DNA from: Methanococcoides sp. LMO-2
GTDB lineage: Archaea > Halobacteriota > Methanosarcinia > Methanosarcinales > Methanosarcinaceae
NCBI RefSeq assembly: GCF_038432375.1
Contig: NZ_JBCAUS010000007.1
Span: forward strand, 248,001-312,000
Direction of reading: 5' to 3'
DNA: 64,000 nt
Shown: piece after piece, positions 39,676-49,335 of the stretch
How positions within the stretch are numbered: the stretch's first letter is position 1
Layout of the letters: each line of letters starts with the position of its first letter
Notes under the pieces: model-generated
Told to the model about the DNA's origin: nothing
Seen by the model: only the letters and a program-made list of their open reading frames with translations
Databases searched by the model: none
Translations under genes and position numbers: made by a program

Positions 39676-40713
39676 TCAGGCTTTATAGCCATATCCCACG
39701 AATCTCTGCTTATCATCAAGGTTGCAGATGATGAACCTGTCCGATTCGTTGTAAGCCAGCAATTTTGAACCGGTCAGTGTTATAGTACATTCGGCGTCCG
39801 TTGTTGTCCTCTCGACCTCTTCGCCATTCACTACTATTTTTGCTAATCTCATCGGGGATGACTGGAGCCCCACGAATATATGTGGTACATCTCCAATTGC
39901 AAAGCCTTTTGAGAACTGTGAGAACTGGCATTTGAGTGTCAGGTCTTCGGTGACATCTTCCTTTTCTGAGAGTATGAAACCTCTCTCGATGTCCTTTGAC
40001 TGGACGTTCTTAAGTGCAAGACCAACACGGGCACCTGGTGGAGCGCTTTTTGCATCCACATCATGCATCTGTATGGAGCGTACTTCCACTGTCTTGTCCG
40101 TTGGGAAAGCCACAAGCTTATCCTTTGCATTCAGCGTACCCTGCATCACGATCCCGAGAACAACGCAACCGATACCTGTTACATTGAAGGACTGGTCGAT
40201 CACAACACGTGTTGGAAGGTCGTTGAGCTCTTCCTGCTCTTTTTCGACTACATCTCCCATATCGAAGATCATTTCCTTCAGTTCTTCCATTCCCTCAAAA
40301 GAGGTTGTGGAAACAGAGATGTAATCCCAGTTCTCAAGAGCGGTGCCGGTGGTTATCTTCTTTATCTTCTCCTTCAGTTCATCTAGGGCAAATGGGTAGC
40401 TTGTATCTGATTTCGTAAGGACGATGATACCGTGCTTATATCCCATCAGGTCAAGTGCGATGATACATTCTCCTATACTTGCATCAAGGCCTTCCGGAGG
40501 CACGCACAAAAGGACAATGTCTGAAAGGTTAAAGGCGGTCACCATGGGCTTGACAGAAGTTGGATAGCCGACGGCGTCTATGGTCGTCAGGACCCTGTCG
40601 TTCTTGGAAAAATCATACATAGTGATGTCTGCTGTATTTCCTTTTTTCCCAAGTTTTGAAGCAAGGGTCGTCCTGCCGCTTTTTTCACTTCCGATGATAG
40701 TTATCTTTGTCAT
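39676..40713 (-). CDS. EF-Tu/SelB-like GTPase with degenerate P-loop
   Basis: The 345-residue protein has the fold order of translation GTPases: a G domain (about 1-170) and two beta-barrel domains (about 180-340). The P-loop reads GSEKSGRTT (residues 8-16), with Arg14 in place of the universal lysine. Switch 2 reads DAVG instead of DxPG, and LTKSD stands for NKxD. It may bind GTP weakly or not at all. Similar EF-Tu/IF-2-like paralogues are annotated in Methanosarcinales. It follows the CBS/RNA ligase cluster on the same strand with a 57-base gap. Confidence 0.75.
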   Translation of the reverse strand: MTKITIIGSEKSGRTTLASKLGKKGNTADITMYDFSKNDRVLTTIDAVGYPTSVKPMVTAFNLSDIVLLCVPPEGLDASIGECIIALDLMGYKHGIIVLTKSDTSYPFALDELKEKIKKITTGTALENWDYISVSTTSFEGMEELKEMIFDMGDVVEKEQEELNDLPTRVVIDQSFNVTGIGCVVLGIVMQGTLNAKDKLVAFPTDKTVEVRSIQMHDVDAKSAPPGARVGLALKNVQSKDIERGFILSEKEDVTEDLTLKCQFSQFSKGFAIGDVPHIFVGLQSSPMRLAKIVVNGEEVERTTTDAECTITLTGSKLLAYNESDRFIICNLDDKQRFVGYGYKA

Positions 40714-40770: not shown

Positions 40771-41946
40771 TCACCAGAGTTCGCCTTTGAACATGGACAG
40801 GGTCTTATCATTGGTGCTCTTGTTCAGCTTCCTTATCTTTATGAGGAATTCATCGCCGACCTTTTCCGGTTCATCGAATATTGCTTCTACTCCCTGTCTT
40901 CGCAGGTATTCTTTGAACTTGGAAAGTGTGTCAAGGCTAGAGACCCTTATCTGCACTTCCTCGGCTACCCTTTCACCTTTTTCCATTTCACCAATGGCAT
41001 CAATCATCGGATAAAGGATACTTTCTCCAAGCTGCAGGCACCGCTTCCTGAGGTCTTCCTCACTTTCTTTCCATTCAAATGCCTGGAAACCTTCCCGCAC
41101 CACTCTTGAAAAAAGATAGTCACGGCCCACATCATTGTAGAACTTGAACGCATGTCGAAGGTCTGCACAATTGCTTTGTGAGCAGGTGTACTTAACAGGT
41201 GGGATGTTCATATCCGGGTCTTTGATAACAACACCTTCATGCTCGATCTTACCGAGATCAAAGATAATGGCACGTATCTTTTCAGGAGCTTCCTTTTTTG
41301 TAAATTCCCCGAAGAGCCTGACCTGAGTAAAACCATATTCCTCGGCCAGCTTCCTTCTTTCATATACCGGAAGGGGTTCACCACTGCCTTTGTACCTCAT
41401 GTCGAAGACATAGAAGTCAATGGAATCCACATCATCGTAGATCTTCTTGGGTACATAGGGGTTATCAGGTCCGACCATCTCCCCGTGCAGGACAAGCTCA
41501 GGGTGGTCATTAAAAAAATCAATGTTTAACAGTTGACCTGCTTTTTCCGTGGAATAGGGGCAGACATATCCACCGCGCGTGATAGCAGTTATCTTTCCAT
41601 CAAAAACTATGGCACGCACATTAAAGCCATTCATCTTCTCTTCCACGCATACCGTATCGGTTTCGGAAAAATGAGTGTTGATGGCAGGTTCCAGCAGCAT
41701 GGCACGCTGTATCTTGGGGAAACCCTTGATCAGTTCAAAAAAGCCATCCTTCTGGCAGATAACAGTTCCACTTTCTATCCCTGAAAAAGTGGTCACAAAA
41801 CGAAAAAGGTGCTGGTATTCCCCCCAGTTCTGCAAAAGCTCACGCTTATCAAGCAGTTTCCGGAGCCTGGAAACAGGTATGCCAAGGTACTCTGACACAC
41901 CTTCTACGTCCAGTTCAATGTCTTTACCAGCATCTTCGACTCGCAT
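40771..41946 (-). CDS. ATP-dependent RNA ligase (Pab1020/Rnl3 family)
   Basis: The 391-residue enzyme joins or circularises RNA ends. The nucleotidyl-transferase motif I is Lys104-Met-Asn-Gly107-Phe-Asn-Val-Arg111 (EEKMNGFNVR). Motifs follow in GEMVGPDNPYV, DFYVFDMR and HEGVVIKDPD, and there is a C-terminal dimerisation region of about 130 residues. Its gene starts 5 bases after the last CBS-domain gene stops, so it belongs to the CBS operon. The length and motif order match archaeal Rnl3 enzymes. Confidence 0.92.
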   Translation of the reverse strand: MRVEDAGKDIELDVEGVSEYLGIPVSRLRKLLDKRELLQNWGEYQHLFRFVTTFSGIESGTVICQKDGFFELIKGFPKIQRAMLLEPAINTHFSETDTVCVEEKMNGFNVRAIVFDGKITAITRGGYVCPYSTEKAGQLLNIDFFNDHPELVLHGEMVGPDNPYVPKKIYDDVDSIDFYVFDMRYKGSGEPLPVYERRKLAEEYGFTQVRLFGEFTKKEAPEKIRAIIFDLGKIEHEGVVIKDPDMNIPPVKYTCSQSNCADLRHAFKFYNDVGRDYLFSRVVREGFQAFEWKESEEDLRKRCLQLGESILYPMIDAIGEMEKGERVAEEVQIRVSSLDTLSKFKEYLRRQGVEAIFDEPEKVGDEFLIKIRKLNKSTNDKTLSMFKGELW

Positions 41947-41951
41947 ATTTC

Positions 41952-42737
41952 TTATTTTGCAATGGTGTTCACAAGCGTCCTTCTTGTAATGAGCCCGACC
42001 AGATCCCCTTCGAGATTTAGGACGGGTACACCTCCAATATTTTCCTCAAGCATCATTTTCTTTACATCGGATATCGGGGTGTTGGTGTTTACGGTCTTGA
42101 CGCCTCTTTTCATGATGTCCTCTACAATGAGGTTCTTGATACGGGAATCCTGTTTGCTTCCTGAGACAACATCCCTGAAGGCGCGCATTGACTTTGCAAT
42201 GTCCTTCTCTGTGATGATTCCCATAAGCTTCTCATCCTCAAGTACAGGGAACCTTCCGACATCCTCATCAAGCATCTGGTGCCTGACATGGCTGACCCTG
42301 TCTGCAGGGTGTACGATTATAGGATTGCTTTTCATGACCTCAGCAGCGTAACCGTCGAATGTTACATTCTCAAGCAGCTCAGCAGGAGTGACCCATCCGA
42401 GAACATTATCATTGTCACTTACAATGATGACGCCACCGCGCTTGATCATTAACACGACAGCATCATTTACGTCCATATCAGGCAGGACCTTCACGTAGTT
42501 GTCTGATACAGCAGTAGCAACATGAAGTGAAGAGGCGGGTTTTGTACCTTTCTTCCGTGTTCCCAGTTCCTTGGTAAGACCTCTCATGGTGAGAATACCG
42601 ACCAGATCATTGTCATGTGTCACTAACAGGCGACGTGTACCTTTCTTTTCCATCACATCAAGTGCATGTGAGATAGTGTCTGCTTTGTCAATTGATGTTG
42701 GTTGTACCATTATGTCCTTTACTTGCATGTCTGTCAC
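41952..42737 (-). CDS. CBS-domain protein (four CBS motifs)
   Basis: The 261-residue protein consists of two Bateman modules: CBS units start near residues 5 ([16 protein letters not shown]), 75, 135 and 205 ([16 protein letters not shown]). There is no catalytic domain, so it is probably an adenine-nucleotide sensor. It is the fifth of five tandem CBS genes and lies 5 bases ahead of the RNA ligase gene. Confidence 0.9.
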
Positions 42738-42782
42738 CTCTTAAACTCAGTTTCTTCATCTGTACTTCTTGCTATGCCTTTT

Positions 42783-43622
42783 TCAGGCTGCTTTCATCAC
42801 GTCTGTTCTGCTGACAATACCAACGATCTCATCGTTCTCGGCAATAGGTAAACCTGTAACATTGTCCTCGATCATCACCTTTGCAGCTTCTGTGACCGGA
42901 TCATCGGCATCGAGTATTGTAGGTATGCCGACCATTATATCCTCTGCAACAAGTGGAACATCTTTTACATACCTGTAGACCTTTTCACCTCCGGCCTTTG
43001 GCTTTCTTGCCATCTTGATGCTCTTGGATGGAAGTCCTCCCTCATTGTTTGCAAGTACATGAAGAGCCAGTTCCCTTGTGGTTATCATTCCCACAGCTTC
43101 ACCGGTGTCATCGGTGACAATAAGTTTGCTGACCTTGTTATTTTCCATTTCATCGACAACGTGGTTGACAGTGTGGTGCCTGTGTACAAATACAGGCTCA
43201 AGGGTCATTATCTCCCCTACCTTTATCTCACTGACCAGTTCTGACATGCACCGTACGACATCAACTCTGGTTACAATTCCCATAAGTCTGCCGTTGCTTA
43301 CCACAGGGATATTATTGATATCATTATCGACCATCAGTGCCGTTGCCTGGGAAACAGATGCATCAGGATAGATCGTTACAGGGTCTTCTGTCATTACCAT
43401 CTTTACAGGGACTTTGTCGATCGGCCTTCTTCTCCACATAGGTTCTGCTTGCGCGAGGCGCCTTCCCAGGTCGGATTTAGTGACTATTCCAACCATCGCA
43501 TCGTTCTCTACAACAACTATGGTGCTTATCTTGTGCCTGAGCATAAGGTTCCTTGCATGTGATACAGGCTCATCCGGTCCCATTACATGGACAGGTGAGG
43601 TCATTACGTCTGATACTTTCAT
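42783..43622 (-). CDS. CBS-domain protein (four CBS motifs)
   Basis: The 279-residue protein has four CBS units, each with the V-x-D-V-M-T or E-D-I-M start (SDVMTSPVHVMGPDEP, KMVMTEDPVTIYPDA, GEIMTLEPVFVHRHH, EDIMVGIPTILDADDP). A short basic linker (KMARKPKAGGEK) precedes the last unit. It forms part of the five-gene CBS array, with 45 bases to the next gene. Confidence 0.9.
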   Translation of the reverse strand: MKVSDVMTSPVHVMGPDEPVSHARNLMLRHKISTIVVVENDAMVGIVTKSDLGRRLAQAEPMWRRRPIDKVPVKMVMTEDPVTIYPDASVSQATALMVDNDINNIPVVSNGRLMGIVTRVDVVRCMSELVSEIKVGEIMTLEPVFVHRHHTVNHVVDEMENNKVSKLIVTDDTGEAVGMITTRELALHVLANNEGGLPSKSIKMARKPKAGGEKVYRYVKDVPLVAEDIMVGIPTILDADDPVTEAAKVMIEDNVTGLPIAENDEIVGIVSRTDVMKAA

Positions 43623-43661
43623 ATCTCATCCTCCTTGTTCTTTTGTTATCCTTGTGGATCT

Positions 43662-44618
43662 TCATTCAGCCATTGCTCGCAGTATGTCCCTTTCCGTGAT
43701 GATACCACAGAGCTTTCCTTCATCGATCACTGGTAGTGCTCCAATACCGTGCTTTACCATAAGCTCACTTGCTTTCCCAAGGTCCGTATCCGATGTTATC
43801 CAGACAACATCCTTTGAGATCAGTGAGCTGATAGGGGCATCCATTACTTCATGGATATTGCCGGTGGTGAGCTTTTCAAATGCCTCTCCGCTTCCCAGAA
43901 AGTGCATAATGGCAGAAGCATTGACAATACCGATCAGGATATCACCCTTGACCACAGGAAGACGGCGGAAATGGTTCTTGATCATTACTTTTGCAGCATC
44001 GCTAATGGTCATGTCTGCAGGTGCTTTTTCAACTCTTTTGCTCATATAGTCAACGACGGCCTTGTTAGTCACAATTCCGGCAGCAAATCCCAGGAAATCC
44101 TTCTCTGTGCAGATAGCACGTACATGGTTCGTACTGTCCACAATTGGAAGGCTTCCGATGTTGTTCTTAAGCATAAGGTCAAAAGCTTCCCTGATATTCC
44201 CATCACTGCGTATCGACACGACTTTGTGCTGCATTATTGTGCTTACGTTTGCATTGATGGCTGAGAGCAGGTTTCCTTTGTACCTGTTCTCAATGAGCTT
44301 GTTCTTCTCTCCGCCTCCCAGGAAATCGATAACATCAAAAGATGTAACGATACCCTCGATCCTATTTGTACCCGCATCAGTAATGGGGATGTGCCTGAAG
44401 TGCTTTTTTGTCATCGTCTTTATGGCATCGATGATCCTGGTTGTGGGGGGTATTGTAATAACATCCCTTGTGGCCACCGACATGATGTCTCCTTCATGCT
44501 CTGAGATCCTTGTATGAAAATCAAAAGCCCCGCGATCCATTGTACCGGAAGTGGTGATCATAGCATGGTCCTTTTTCTGAACCTTGCTTTTCATAGGGCT
44601 GTGTGTTTCAAGTTTCAT
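43662..44618 (-). CDS. CBS-domain protein with N-terminal extension
   Basis: The 318-residue protein has a charged N-terminal extension of about 45 residues followed by four CBS units (MSVATRDVITIPPTTR, STIMQHKVVSIRSDG, DYMSKRVEKAPADM, SSLISKDVVWITSDT). It is the third gene of the array. The extension could bind a partner or RNA, but no motif was recognised. Confidence 0.88.
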   Translation of the reverse strand: MKLETHSPMKSKVQKKDHAMITTSGTMDRGAFDFHTRISEHEGDIMSVATRDVITIPPTTRIIDAIKTMTKKHFRHIPITDAGTNRIEGIVTSFDVIDFLGGGEKNKLIENRYKGNLLSAINANVSTIMQHKVVSIRSDGNIREAFDLMLKNNIGSLPIVDSTNHVRAICTEKDFLGFAAGIVTNKAVVDYMSKRVEKAPADMTISDAAKVMIKNHFRRLPVVKGDILIGIVNASAIMHFLGSGEAFEKLTTGNIHEVMDAPISSLISKDVVWITSDTDLGKASELMVKHGIGALPVIDEGKLCGIITERDILRAMAE

Positions 44619-44760
44619 TTAATCCTCCATATTGTTCGTTCTTTTTTGGTGTCTGGATGGCGGTACGGATTCGGAGTGATCTTTGATTACCCGAAAATTT
44701 GTTGAGCCTGTGGTCCAGGCCCTGTTTTGATATTAATGAATATAGATGGAATTTCCTCCA

Positions 44761-45558
44761 TTATTGAACAGGATCGGTCCCCATCACAAATGTCCGCAGT
44801 ATGTCTGTGCGGTCCACGATACCTGCTATACGGTCCTTATCAACGACCGTCATTCTGCCAACATCGTAATGGAGCATCTGCTTGAGACAGTCCTTTATCG
44901 GTGTGTCAGAAGATACTGAATAAACAGGTGTTGACATTATCTTTTCAACCATCGTGGTATCTTTGGGCTGGGTTGCATGGGTATCACTCATGGATGTCCT
45001 GATAAATCCGGAACGGATCACGTCCATCCTTGTGACTATTCCCATTGGCTCACCCTTTTCAGAGATCACAGGCAGACCCGAAAAGTTTGATTCGAGAAGA
45101 ACCGGCCAGATCTTTGTCAGATTATCATGTGGTTTGCAGGTGCTGACATCCGTGGTCATTATGTCAGCCACGGTTGCATCCAGTTTCCTGTCTCCTGCAA
45201 TGTTTGCAAGTATATCCGAATTGCTCAGTATACCTGCCAGGCTCCTGTCCTCATTGGAAATAACAACAGGACAGCGCCCGATCTCTGAATCAAGAAGATA
45301 TCCTGCAGCATCAGCAATATCTGTCTCAGGTGTTATCAGCGGACATGCATGCATGTAGCCTTCCACCGTAACATTGGATTTTGTGGCCTTGATATTGAGA
45401 ATATCCTGGTCCTTCAGTATACCGATGACCTTTTCTTCCTCATCTATTACAGGCAGGCCCCTGAGGTAGTGGTCTCTCATCAGCTGACGTGCATGTGTGA
45501 TGCTGTCATGCGCATTTATGCATACGGCATCCTTTGACATGATTTCATTGACTTTCAT
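44761..45558 (-). CDS. CBS-domain protein (four CBS motifs)
   Basis: The 265-residue protein carries four CBS units (NEIMSKDAVCINAHDS, a second degenerate one, ADIMTTDVSTCKPHDN, EKIMSTPVYSVSSDT). It is the second gene of the array, followed by a 142-base gap that might carry an internal promoter. Confidence 0.9.
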   Translation of the reverse strand: MKVNEIMSKDAVCINAHDSITHARQLMRDHYLRGLPVIDEEEKVIGILKDQDILNIKATKSNVTVEGYMHACPLITPETDIADAAGYLLDSEIGRCPVVISNEDRSLAGILSNSDILANIAGDRKLDATVADIMTTDVSTCKPHDNLTKIWPVLLESNFSGLPVISEKGEPMGIVTRMDVIRSGFIRTSMSDTHATQPKDTTMVEKIMSTPVYSVSSDTPIKDCLKQMLHYDVGRMTVVDKDRIAGIVDRTDILRTFVMGTDPVQ

Positions 45559-45595
45559 ACGAACCCCCGTTCATAAGGTCGTTCAAAGAAGCGTT

Positions 45596-46207
45596 TCAGT
45601 CGTAGTAGCCTTCGTCTTCCTTACAGTCCTCACATAACATCAGACCGTTAACAGGGCTAAGGCTATCCACATACGAATCGCATCTCTGGCAGATCCCCCT
45701 TCCAAATTCCGCAGTTTGAGGAATATCCTGCTCCCGGTTCATCTCTATCAGGTCTTCAAGAATAGTATTAAGACCCGGGGCAACTGTAAGGATATCCCGG
45801 TCCGTTACAATACCGATGATCTCGTCATCACCATTAGTAACTCCAAGTCTGCGGATCCCGGATTTGACCATGATCTCAGATGCTTTGATAACATCTGTAG
45901 ATGATTTTACTGTTATTATGGGAGACGACATTATTTCTTCAGCAAGCATGGTGCTGGGTTTGACATCCTTCGCCATGACCTTGTGAACGATATCCCTCTC
46001 GGTTATAATACCTGCGGGGTTGCCATCTTTCGAGACAATGATACTGCCAATATTATTATCCTTCATTGCCTGAGCAACTTCAAGTGCTGTACTGGTGATG
46101 TCAAGGATAAAAACATCCTGCGTCATTATCTCGCGCAAGACAATATCGTTGAGCAACTGGCCTGCAGTTCCTTCTGCCTCGACATCCCATTTGGTCCCAA
46201 TGACCAT
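45596..46207 (-). CDS. Two-CBS protein with C-terminal zinc ribbon
   Basis: The 203-residue protein contains one Bateman module (two CBS units, residues 25-150: REIMTQDVFILDITS and EEIMSSPIITVKSST) and a C-terminal CQRC...CEDC zinc ribbon (about 172-195). A zinc ribbon beside CBS units often marks a nucleic-acid-linked regulator. It is the first gene of the CBS array and lies 86 bases after the RPA gene. Confidence 0.9.
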   Translation of the reverse strand: MVIGTKWDVEAEGTAGQLLNDIVLREIMTQDVFILDITSTALEVAQAMKDNNIGSIIVSKDGNPAGIITERDIVHKVMAKDVKPSTMLAEEIMSSPIITVKSSTDVIKASEIMVKSGIRRLGVTNGDDEIIGIVTDRDILTVAPGLNTILEDLIEMNREQDIPQTAEFGRGICQRCDSYVDSLSPVNGLMLCEDCKEDEGYYD

Positions 46208-46293
46208 GCGATATCACCCTCCTATGCTATTGCTTGTGTTCCCACACTACACAAAGAATATTCTGACTTAATAGCATATATAGGTGATTGTGC

Positions 46294-47427
46294 TCACATT
46301 ATAGTGATCCTTGTACGGTTTCCTGCACTTAGTTCTATCTCATCATTGAAACCTGCTTTTGAATATGCGTCAATGATCTGGATAGGGGTATCGATGTCCA
46401 GCTCGTCCACAAGCAGTGCATGATCTCCCCACAATGCAATGCGGATCCTTCCTGTGTCGTCGGATACATAGATATTTGATACCATGTTGGTGGTCCCGTC
46501 ATCCCTGTCAAATTCCCTGAGCTCACCAAGGCCTGATACTGAGCCTTCGATGGAATATGATTCACCGGGGATTATATCGGCTATTGGTGTGAAGCTTTCT
46601 TTGTATTCGACTTCCGCATCTGTTTTCCTGAGAACTCCATGGTTTCCGATCTGGATCTCTACCTGCTGGCTGAAGTTGTTCGTCCTGGCATATCCGTTTA
46701 TGATCTCAATGGTGTCATCAAGCTTCATCTCCTTTGTGGAATCGACCTTTTCGTCCCACAATGTCACACGGATCTTTCCGGTTTCGTCACCAATGAGTAT
46801 GTTACCTACACGTCCCTGGCTTCCGTCCTTCTTCTGGAAGGTTCTGACGTCCGATATGTCCAGCAACTTTCCGGAAACGTTGATATCGCCCATCCCATCC
46901 CGGATCTCGGAGATCTTCTGTGAGTCAAGCCTGATCTCGATGTTCTGGTCGGTGGTGTTGATCACACCATACCTTCCGATGTTGACCTCAGTACCGGAAT
47001 AGCCGTCCTTTGCATATCCGCTGATCTCCATGCAGTCCCCTACCTCGATATTCCCGTTCTTGATAAGGTCAGCACGTTCATCCCATAACGTCAGCCTGAT
47101 AGAGCCGGTATCATCAGCTACCATGAGGTTACCGACCTTTCCGATGGTACCATCATTCCTGTTGAACTCGCGTACATCGAACACTGAGACAACCTTTGCA
47201 ACGAAGTTGACATTACCTATCTCAGGGTTTATGTCCTTTATTTTGATAACTTCCTTTGCGGTATCGGTTACACCAAGATCGTGGGCAACAAGCATTGCCG
47301 CTGTCTTGACATCACAAAGGCCGCTCATCTGCTCGACCTTTTCCTCTACCTTTTTTCGAAAATCATCTTCGCTGATAATGCCTCCAAGCTTATTGTAGAT
47401 CTCAGTTATCTCGTCCATTGATGACAC
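46294..47427 (-). CDS. Replication factor A, three-OB-fold single-stranded DNA-binding protein
   Basis: The 377-residue protein has a helical N-terminus and three OB folds at about 68-165, 170-265 and 275-370, each with a WDE(R/K) or WGD stretch (IRLTLWDERADL, IRVTLWDEKVDS, IRIALWGDHALL). The repetition indicates internal duplication. It lacks the zinc finger of some archaeal RPA41 proteins. It coats single-stranded DNA at forks and repair sites, and sits upstream of the CBS array. Confidence 0.9.
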   Translation of the reverse strand: MSSMDEITEIYNKLGGIISEDDFRKKVEEKVEQMSGLCDVKTAAMLVAHDLGVTDTAKEVIKIKDINPEIGNVNFVAKVVSVFDVREFNRNDGTIGKVGNLMVADDTGSIRLTLWDERADLIKNGNIEVGDCMEISGYAKDGYSGTEVNIGRYGVINTTDQNIEIRLDSQKISEIRDGMGDINVSGKLLDISDVRTFQKKDGSQGRVGNILIGDETGKIRVTLWDEKVDSTKEMKLDDTIEIINGYARTNNFSQQVEIQIGNHGVLRKTDAEVEYKESFTPIADIIPGESYSIEGSVSGLGELREFDRDDGTTNMVSNIYVSDDTGRIRIALWGDHALLVDELDIDTPIQIIDAYSKAGFNDEIELSAGNRTRITIM

Positions 47428-47646
47428 CTGTTAATGTGATACGGAACATGGTCCGCAGAACCGTTTAAAACATAGGGATTTGCAACAATTAATTCTCACT
47501 ATCCTGTAAGTAGTGTGAACCCGGTTAACTTTAGTCCGATATGATATAATCCTAACGAAAGGCGTGTTGTATGAATGTTAAAGAGTACCTTTGAATAGAC
47601 AGTATCACTTAATATACCGCGTCCTGTGAGGGAAGTTACGGATAAA

Positions 47647-47657
47647 GTTATATTAAC
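47647..47657 (+). promoter_or_regulatory. kptA box A, probable leaderless transcript
   Basis: GTTATATTAAC lies about 27-32 bases before the ATG at 47685, the spacing of box A to the transcription start, and no ribosome binding site precedes that ATG. A leaderless mRNA is likely. Confidence 0.4.
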
Positions 47658-47684
47658 TATTAAATGCATTTGCAACTAGATAGC

Positions 47685-48314
47685 ATGATTCGAAAATGTA
47701 AAGAGCATGGATACTTCAGAGGCGAAGTTTGTCCTGAGTGTGGCAATAGTGGCAGGTATGTACTGGATGACGAACGTGAAGAACGCCTTGGCAGGTTCGT
47801 TTCAGGTGCCTTGAGACATTTTCCGGATGATGTAGGTCTTACAATGGATAAACAGGGCTGGGTCAACATGGACCTGCTTTGTGATATCATGGAACGCCGA
47901 TACAGGTGGGCAAGCAGGGAACGCCTGGTCTCACTTGTGGAATCAGACGTTAAGAACAGGTACGAGATAACAGGGTCCAGGATAAGGGCAAGATACGGCC
48001 ATTCCGTGGATGTGGAACTGGATTATCCTGACAATGAGCTGCCTTACCTTTACTACGGCGTCAGCCAGGAAGAAGTTGACATGCTTCTTGATGCTGGTAT
48101 TGCGCCCCTGAGGCAGACGTATGTCCATCTCAGCACCACTCCGGAAAAGGCTACAGAATCAGCATCAGTTCACACAGAGAACCCGGTTGTACTGGAAATC
48201 GATGCAGATGAGGCACAAAATGACGGCATTGAGTTCATGGCCGTAAACAGTGATATCGTGCTTGCAGAATCCGTACCTTCTGAATATCTGGTTGTTGTGG
48301 AAATGGAAGAATGA
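47685..48314 (+). CDS. kptA: RNA 2'-phosphotransferase (Tpt1/KptA)
   Basis: The enzyme moves an internal 2'-phosphate from RNA to NAD. From the ATG at 47685 (209 residues; an ATG seven codons earlier is also possible) a small N-terminal metal knuckle has Cys5, His8, Cys16 and Cys19. The N-terminal lobe motif LRHFPDDVGL and the NAD-binding lobe motifs RARYGHSV and YVHLSTTPEKA follow. The C-terminus LVVVEMEE ends a normal-length protein. The 2'-phosphate it removes is left by some RNA ligation routes; an RNA ligase and RtcA lie nearby. Confidence 0.9.
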   Translation: MIRKCKEHGYFRGEVCPECGNSGRYVLDDEREERLGRFVSGALRHFPDDVGLTMDKQGWVNMDLLCDIMERRYRWASRERLVSLVESDVKNRYEITGSRIRARYGHSVDVELDYPDNELPYLYYGVSQEEVDMLLDAGIAPLRQTYVHLSTTPEKATESASVHTENPVVLEIDADEAQNDGIEFMAVNSDIVLAESVPSEYLVVVEMEE

Positions 48315-48324
48315 GCAGATCTGC

Positions 48325-49335
48325 TCATGCTACCGATATTTCCATAATATCTTCTTTTTTTTGTATATTGAACTTCACATCAAGGAACTGCTCTGTTACA
48401 CTGATGTTCGTTGATGTGTGGGGTGAGACCTCCCTTACTGTGAAGGAGCCACCTTTTGTGAGTCCCATGTAGGGTATCAGTTGGTCTGCCAGGTGTACGT
48501 CCACGGAAGAATTGCTCGAGAGCTCGCTGAGAAGCTCCGTAGCTGCCCGGGAACCCACTTTTTCAGCAGGTAGTCCCCTTTTTCCCGGAACGTACGCTCC
48601 CTTCATTTCGGATTGCAATGTTATCCCGCTGCCAGTGGAAGGATATTCAGCGCATTCAGTATCGATATGGCATTCGTATCCGGCCTTTTCAATGATATCT
48701 CTTGCAGAATCTGCCTGACGCTGTGCAACATGCTCGGGGAGGTTGGAGCAATGGGATATGCCGGTCACCTTCCAGTCTTTTGCCTCCCTTACTTTTTCCG
48801 AAAAGTCGCAGGCTCTCAGTTTCGATGGGGAGATAGTTGCATGGACAACCCCACCGCCACGGGGATAGTAACCTCTTTTTCGTGTATCGATATTGCATCT
48901 GTATCCCATCTCTGAGATTGCCCTGAGTGTCACATTGTTAAGGTAATCGATGCTCGGGGACCAGGAAACGTCTGTGCCCCCGATGATACTCAGTTCGATC
49001 TCAGTTTCAGAATACGCTGCTGCCGGCATTATACATTGAAGCAGGAGTGCTATACTTCCGGCTGTTCCGATATCAATATTATAGTAACCCCCCTTTATTT
49101 CCTGTGGAGAAAAAGTGATAGCTGTAGAGCCTATGCCGATTCCTTCCACAGTGGCATCACAGATCATGGCAGCCGTTTCTATTGCTTTTACATGTTGTGC
49201 CGAAAGACCGGGTTTCGGGCGATTGCTGCGTATATCTGTAATGGTGACAGCTTCTCCGGTGACCGCAGAGAGTGCCACGGATGTCCTCAATATCTGGCCA
49301 CCGCCTTCACCATAGGACCCGTCGATATGTATCAT
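48325..49335 (-). CDS. rtcA: RNA 3'-terminal phosphate cyclase
   Basis: The 336-residue enzyme converts RNA 3'-phosphate to 2',3'-cyclic phosphate using ATP. The start IDGSYGEGGGQILRTSVALS, the YYPRGGG motif near residue 155 and the catalytic HLADQ near residue 280 are all typical. It overlaps the following flavoprotein gene by 4 bases (its start ATG overlaps that gene's stop), so they share a transcript. Confidence 0.95.
   Translation of the reverse strand: MIHIDGSYGEGGGQILRTSVALSAVTGEAVTITDIRSNRPKPGLSAQHVKAIETAAMICDATVEGIGIGSTAITFSPQEIKGGYYNIDIGTAGSIALLLQCIMPAAAYSETEIELSIIGGTDVSWSPSIDYLNNVTLRAISEMGYRCNIDTRKRGYYPRGGGVVHATISPSKLRACDFSEKVREAKDWKVTGISHCSNLPEHVAQRQADSARDIIEKAGYECHIDTECAEYPSTGSGITLQSEMKGAYVPGKRGLPAEKVGSRAATELLSELSSNSSVDVHLADQLIPYMGLTKGGSFTVREVSPHTSTNISVTEQFLDVKFNIQKKEDIMEISVA

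Follow-up and report, generated by a model that had tools for sequence, protein, structure and literature searches.

HibA, together with six families of CBS modules named CM-1 to CM-6, was described in 2026 (PMC13324472; like the other papers given by PMC number, cited here for the accessible part of its text). CM-1 and CM-4, and in the discussion of that paper also CM-5, were detected in dormant ribosomes, the case of CM-2 was left undecided, and the CM genes are clustered in 10% of archaeal genomes (PMC13324472). A ribosome entry released on 2026-01-28 (9zni) bears the title "Cryo-EM structure of the Methanosarcina acetivorans 70S ribosome in complex with SriC and SriD," and further CBS chains are present in entries 9znf and 9zng. 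Here we describe a locus of Methanococcoides sp. LMO-2 in which genes for orthologs of such chains stand next to the gene for an RNA ligase. Within the window (the whole stretch of 64,000 nucleotides that was analyzed, positions 248,001 to 312,000 of contig NZ_JBCAUS010000007.1), five tandem genes for CBS-only proteins, which we call CBS1Z and CBS2 to CBS5, lie on one strand, the last of them 5 bases ahead of an ATP-dependent RNA ligase gene. This much had been predicted from the sequence beforehand, and both the open reading frames (ORFs) and Pfam bear it out: two CBS domains and a Cys4 ribbon in CBS1Z, four CBS domains in each of CBS2 to CBS5, and a ligase that TIGR01209 places in the Rnl3 type.

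Ligases of this kind have been linked to RNA circularization, to ribosomal RNA (rRNA) and to HARP. Knockout of Rnl in T. kodakarensis led to loss of circular C/D-box small RNAs (sRNAs) and to a build-up of 16S and 23S fragments, those of 23S lying near the sarcin-ricin loop (PMC9014305), and a 2025 opinion article links Rnl3 with HARP, with which it co-occurs (PMC12153264). The term "CBS" occurs 0 times in the accessible text of these two papers, as does "RNA ligase" in the main text of PMC13324472. An earlier account of the genomic context of aSelBL, dating from 2011, named the ligase a DNA ligase and, in its accessible part, dealt with Methanosarcinales only and mentioned neither a CBS array nor a link to ribosomes (PMC3037878). 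No paper joining array, ligase and ribosomes was found in the literature searched, a search that left most subscription papers and any paper on 9zni outside its reach.

Array proteins and chains of ribosome structures

Four of the five array proteins have close counterparts among the chains of the ribosome entries. In a PDB sequence search, CBS2 matched chain 4 of 9znf over residues 1-260 (E 2.4e-73), while nearly full-length matches joined CBS3 to chain 5 of 9znf (E 6.6e-103), CBS4 to chain 6 of 9zni (E 2.3e-99) and CBS5 to chain 7 of both 9zni and 9zng (E about 1e-108). Scores to these chains ran from 250 to 366 bits per CBS protein and the next-best other chain reached at most about 73 bits, except for CBS3, which is also close to MJ1225 (3kh5; E 6.7e-59, 203 bits). 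We take 9znf, 9zng and 9zni to be ribosome entries because the uS11 protein of the window genome has its best match in a uS11 chain common to 9o17, 9znf, 9zng and 9zni. The correspondence between CBS2-CBS5 and the Sri factors of M. acetivorans is one-to-one and nearly full length, and in Methanosarcina-type loci the Sri genes stand in the same order as in the window array. The chains also come in pairs, with the orthologs of CBS2 and CBS3 in 9znf and those of CBS4 and CBS5 in 9zni. Judged by these matches, CBS4 and CBS5 correspond to SriC and SriD, whichever is which, and CBS2 and CBS3 are likely to be SriA and SriB.

Since their orthologs are chains of ribosome entries, CBS2 to CBS5 are best seen as putative ribosome-binding factors of the hibernation type rather than as sensors dedicated to the ligase. 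The original prediction had cast all five proteins as sensors tied to a single RNA-end enzyme; we reject this role for CBS2 to CBS5 on the strength of the ribosome-chain matches, and array and ligase each persist alone, as described below. Neither CBS1Z nor the ligase had an ortholog-level chain in the ribosome entries by the same search, in which the matches of CBS1Z to 9zn* chains were no better than paralog level, at about 52 bits or less. Like HibA, Dri and CM-1 to CM-6, which are four-CBS modules on archaeal ribosomes whose genes are often clustered (PMC13324472), CBS2 to CBS5 consist of four CBS domains each; in HibA, however, the CBS module is fused to HPF/RaiA, whereas by Pfam CBS2 to CBS5 are separate proteins lacking HPF/RaiA and have no further match save a marginal PRC domain inside CBS2 (21.3 bits against a cut-off of 21.2). 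Of the 43 CBS-domain matches in the genome, 18 fall in the five array genes; given this concentration and the conservation of gene order over the phylum sample, the array is not a chance grouping.

In CBS1Z, all four cysteines of the CxxC...CxxC ribbon are invariant in 14 diverse orthologs, and the ribbon blocks of its predicted model have a predicted local distance difference test (pLDDT) score of about 77-82. Among the fold matches listed for this model, the best were to TA0289, a CBS-rubredoxin-like protein that has two CBS domains and a metal-binding ribbon as well (1pvm and 2qh1; Z 18.6 and 18.5, 152 aligned residues spanning 20-196, 24% identity); the match covers both the CBS pair and the ribbon and so places CBS1Z in the TA0289 type.

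T/S-x-x-D is the ribose motif of CBS adenylate sites. Counted in ORFs of 0.75-1.5 times the length of the window protein, with one best ORF per locus, the motif is intact at both CBS1Z sites in 68/68 sequences, at CBS3 sites 1 and 4 in 74/74 and at CBS4 sites 1 and 2 in 61/61. Site 3 of CBS2 has Thr in all 52 sequences, followed by Asp in 47 and Asn in 5, and in CBS5 the motif Asp is gone at most sites, being kept mainly at site 3 (57/60). The adenine-nucleotide sensing first suggested for the whole array is thus plausible, from the intact ligand motifs, for CBS1Z, CBS3 and CBS4, and fits CBS5 poorly, with its motif Asp mostly lost. The CBS module of HibA binds AMP best, with a dissociation constant of 12 uM (PMC13324472).

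The ligase itself scored 389.8 bits against TIGR01209 (cut-off 136.9) and also matched PF09414 and PF18330 (147 bits), which assigns it to the Rnl3 family. Nearly full-length matches to MthRnl (5d1o, E 2.2e-122) and Pab1020 (2vug, E 3.8e-83) place it in the same family as these enzymes, and it can be likened to TkoRnl (TK1545) by family name only. Its EEKMNG motif is invariant in 12 diverse ligases.

Conservation of the array and its linkage to the ligase

Fifty of the 60 relatives carry the ligase, as do, by TIGR01209, 163 of the 392 genomes of a phylum sample (158 above cut-off). We read 88 ligase loci from 16 families, belonging to 48 of the 50 ligase-positive relatives and to 40 phylum-sample genomes picked for family spread; one locus (L039) was covered in part in the neighborhood survey. 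CBS orthology in the neighbor tables was assigned from the top BLAST hit among the window proteins rather than from a tree, families are numbered f1, f2 and so on, and the names Archaeoglobaceae-like, haloarchaea-like and Methanosarcina-like are labels given by our own reading and not by a tool.

Same-strand CBS genes lie no more than eight genes upstream of the ligase at 76 of the 88 loci, and at 69 the immediate same-strand upstream gene is itself a CBS gene. Among 80 named loci, a set overlapping with the 88, upstream CBS genes are present at 77 and the full five at 51 (exactly five in order at 50, with an extra CBS5 at one); the three named loci lacking them are short or start near a contig edge. 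The order CBS1Z-CBS2-CBS3-CBS4-CBS5-ligase, for which the original prediction had suggested a comparison with other Methanosarcinales, is kept far outside the genus, both within that order and beyond it, and scattering of the CBS genes was not seen in the relatives. Most genes overlap or almost touch in f2, f5, f6 and several deeper families, and the ligases of f2 and f5 are only 49-58% identical to that of the window. In f1 the count of gaps of 50 or less (13/32) is low partly as an artefact, nine ligase ORFs bearing an in-frame TAG having been cut at that codon.

Outside the solo lineages, in which the ligase stands alone, CBS3 is upstream of the ligase at 74 of 79 loci, CBS1Z at 66 (some of the loci lacking it are cut by contig ends) and CBS5 at 57, so that CBS3 and CBS1Z are the steadiest companions of the ligase in the loci read. 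The Archaeoglobaceae-like loci (f9) carry CBS1Z-CBS3-ligase in all 16 cases, with reading frames overlapping in many; these three genes are the whole unit at 15, and one locus has a further upstream CBS gene. No CBS5 was found in the 18 Archaeoglobaceae-like genomes at E<=1e-20, in a search that had no internal positive control. Twelve of these 18 genomes gave weak HPF-like/S30AE matches (PF02482, E<=0.1, none above cut-off), many of them in ORFs of HibA length, 388-416 amino acids (G211, G116, G157, G097 and others), which are likely to be HibA; none of the 60 relatives had a match to PF02482, a model with which HibA-length candidates score weakly, and this absence is not taken to prove that HPF was replaced. 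The CBS set is therefore modular, its ligase-linked CBS1Z-CBS3 core persisting in archaea that lack CBS5 and probably rely on HibA. In Methanolobus-type loci (10 named) the unit is CBS1Z-CBS4-CBS5-ligase, without CBS2 and CBS3.

Array and ligase also occur apart. The 12 of 88 ligase loci without CBS genes comprise nine haloarchaea-like or similar ones, with the ligase alone, and three in f4; in two of these three f4 genomes the array is intact elsewhere. CBS5 had a match in 59 of the 60 relatives (E<=1e-40), and the 10 ligase-negative genomes of the order keep CBS3-4-5 (six genomes, f3) or else CBS4-5 or CBS5 alone (four, g9 and g10). In f21, f17 and f11, arrays that begin with CBS1Z are retained by genomes in which no ligase was detected. 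Matches to a CBS1Z profile occur in 329 of the 392 phylum-sample genomes (E<=1e-30, eight candidates scored per genome) vs. 163 with the ligase, and a strict tie of CBS1Z to the ligase was accordingly rejected at the level of the phylum.

Three loci differ in other ways. At L078 (G015:C1) the ligase lies in two reading frames, through a frameshift or a sequencing error, beside an intact array. A contig labeled Candidatus Dojkabacteria (L140) bears the entire locus in a Methanosalsum-like form and probably owes its label to a binning error. One genome has, beside its main array, a second and partial one (L233, G004:C9:266000-285500) made up of a CBS1Z-like gene, a CBS2-like gene and a 627-amino-acid ORF with eight CBS domains.

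Proposed role in ribosome dormancy and RNA maintenance, and alternative explanations

With modest confidence, we read the locus as an operon that serves ribosome dormancy and includes an arm for RNA maintenance. CBS2 to CBS5 would dock pairwise on idle ribosomes, CBS2 with CBS3 and CBS4 with CBS5, and the docked pairs would fill functional ribosome sites while translation is off. We infer that these ribosomes are dormant and that the trigger is energetic, in that adenylate binding by the CBS domains would tune docking to the energy state of the cell. The co-inherited Rnl3 ligase would act on ribosome-related RNA, that is, on rRNA that has been nicked or broken in stored ribosomes, on circular C/D-box guide RNAs, or on both. 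CBS1Z would contact the ligase or RNA and link it to the nucleotide state; because it combines two intact ligand sites with a Cys4 ribbon, it is the best candidate for such a link. The lasting neighborhood of the ligase hints that ribosome storage and RNA mending are linked. That the steadiest Rnl3 neighbors in the loci read are relatives of ribosome-bound dormancy factors gives the ligase a concrete and testable role, the upkeep of RNA integrity in stored ribosomes, and singles out CBS1Z as an unexamined member of the set. A sharper version would have the CBS factors park ribosomes as AMP rises, CBS1Z (perhaps with CBS3) pass the nucleotide state and RNA to Rnl3, and Rnl3 reseal stored rRNA before waking; to this full sequence of events we give a slim chance. 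If it held, no earlier dormancy operon equipped with an RNA repair enzyme would be known to us.

Several points weigh against a dormancy operon of this kind. Genes can stay neighbors by inheritance though nothing links their functions, and array and ligase each occur in the absence of the other, neither requiring its partner. Methanosarcina-like loci (6 in the 88-locus set) have an opposite-strand ORF between CBS5 and the ligase and hence no uninterrupted operon; the single transcription unit of the original prediction thus stands as a conserved operon-like unit, in which co-transcription of the ligase is not universal. No structure or pull-down was found in which a ribosome is accompanied by CBS1Z or by the ligase. 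HibA in ribosome reconstitutions was little affected by AMP or ATP (PMC13324472). Growth of the Rnl knockout in rich medium did not differ significantly at 85 and 93 C, and the effect of the knockout on rRNA may be indirect (PMC9014305).

Among the alternatives, the one that survives best confines the ligase to circularization of C/D-box sRNAs (hence to rRNA methylation) or to pre-tRNA metabolism with HARP, so that it would have in common with the dormancy genes only a stress-responsive promoter and would repair no stored ribosomes. The loss of C/D-box circles in the knockout (PMC9014305) and the co-occurrence of Rnl3 with HARP (PMC12153264) agree with this, and the window genome does encode HARP (TIGR03875; G000:C7:214022-214669), on the same contig and about 74 kb from the ligase, while at the solo locus L195 a PIN-like ORF, read as HARP by eye, adjoins the ligase. 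Yet rRNA fragments change in the knockout too (PMC9014305), and such a role by itself leaves the constancy of the CBS array as a neighbor in the loci read unaccounted for; we regard it as unlikely.

A second possibility is a complex centered on the ligase, in which the CBS proteins, or in a narrowed form CBS1Z and CBS3 only, bind the enzyme as an ATP/AMP switch. The frequency of CBS3 and CBS1Z upstream of the ligase, the f9 loci in which the unit consists of these two genes and the ligase, often with overlapping frames, and the intact ligand motifs would all suit such a complex, but the orthologs of CBS2-5 are ribosome chains, Methanolobus-type loci keep the ligase without CBS2 and CBS3, and CBS1Z-profile matches are far commoner than the ligase, all of which makes it very improbable. 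That a tandem CBS duplication array merely sits beside an unrelated ligase in an ancient, vertically inherited operon agrees with the separate occurrence of each, with the looser linkage in Methanosarcina-like loci and with its loss in the three f4 loci, but is more doubtful still, since small gaps or overlaps persist at about 50% ligase identity where the flanking RPA, KptA, RtcA and aSelBL genes of the window (Table 1) are absent, and since members are lost selectively while the remainder stays linked.

Locus layout, neighboring genes and an in-frame TAG codon

Six ORFs, for the five CBS proteins and the ligase, were confirmed, all on the minus strand (Table 1). The transcription order is RPA, CBS1Z, CBS2, CBS3, CBS4, CBS5, RNA ligase and an EF1A/SelB-like gene, with gaps of 86 bases between RPA and CBS1Z, 37 between CBS1Z and CBS2, 142 between CBS2 and CBS3, 39 between CBS3 and CBS4, 45 between CBS4 and CBS5, 5 before the ligase and 57 after it. 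The 142-base gap, the largest inside the array, could have room for a second promoter.

Table 1. Features of the CBS array, the ligase and their surroundings (positions in the window).
Feature	Coordinates	Strand	Basis or remark
CBS1Z, first array gene; 2 CBS domains + C-terminal Cys4 ribbon, 203 amino acids	45596..46207	-	Pfam PF00571 x2
Cys4 ribbon of CBS1Z (GIC..C ... C..C)	45623..45697	-	cysteines Cys173/176/192/195
CBS2; 4 CBS domains, 265 amino acids; ortholog of 9znf chain 4	44761..45558	-	PDB sequence match
CBS3; 4 CBS domains, 318 amino acids; ortholog of 9znf chain 5	43662..44618	-	PDB sequence match
CBS4; 4 CBS domains, 279 amino acids; ortholog of 9zni chain 6	42783..43622	-	PDB sequence match
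CBS5; 4 CBS domains, 261 amino acids; ortholog of chain 7 in 9zni/9zng	41952..42737	-	PDB sequence match
ATP-dependent RNA ligase, Rnl3/Pab1020/MthRnl kind, 391 amino acids; Lys104 in EEKMNG	40771..41946	-	TIGR01209, PF09414, PF18330
aSelBL/MM1309-type translation-GTPase-like gene, 57 bases past the ligase	39676..40713	-	3wnb match
TATA-like box CACCTATATATG, 68 bases ahead of the CBS1Z start	46275..46286	-	invariant in 11 genomes
RPA-type single-strand binding protein, preceding the array	46294..47427	-	NF012035, 690.4 bits
KptA/Tpt1 RNA 2'-phosphotransferase, divergent neighbor	47664..48314	+	NF002015, 354.3 bits
RtcA RNA 3'-phosphate cyclase	48325..49335	-	TIGR03399, 393.1 bits

The TATA-like box CACCTATATATG is unchanged in all 11 Methanococcoides genomes, and from this invariance the array may start at CBS1Z and not at RPA; in many other lineages, too, TATA-like boxes lie ahead of CBS1Z, as judged by eye. 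The CBS1Z leader of the genus (46208-46293) holds an inverted repeat around a common GTGGGA, the arms of which vary between two species groups with the pairing kept; by eye, this hairpin was not found in other genera. Three RNA-end enzymes (the Rnl3 ligase, KptA/Tpt1 and RtcA) lie inside 9 kb (40771-49335), a neighborhood repeated in many loci of family f1, the family in which RPA, KptA and RtcA are seen as neighbors of the locus.

Codon 64 of the ligase (41755..41757, minus strand) is TGC (Cys) in the window, whereas nine of the 11 Methanococcoides genomes (L002-L006 and L008-L011) have an in-frame TAG there. The TAG occurs once in each of the nine carriers, always at this codon (60-64) and flanked on both sides by conserved protein sequence, and over the 327 codons downstream one pair of carriers differs by 101 synonymous vs. 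45 non-synonymous changes. The equivalent residue is encoded by CAG (Gln) in one relative, is mostly Tyr or Phe in other genera and has a Tyr codon in near outgroups. PylS scored above cut-off in 11/11 genomes of the genus, and the TAG codon is probably a pyrrolysine site in an RNA enzyme; since the site tolerates many residues, this fits neutral drift through pyrrolysine.

The gene that follows the ligase matched 3wnb (M. mazei MM1309) with E 7.6e-125 and has the P-loop Arg14 and the Tyr50 of MM1309, which identifies it as an MM1309 ortholog. MM1309 was earlier proposed as EF-Pyl and later shown to bind Cys-tRNACys, and its pocket is too small for pyrrolysine (PMC4329189), which rules against the gene as EF-Pyl. 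It lies just past the ligase gene in most loci of family f1, and the ligases of relatives bear the TAG.

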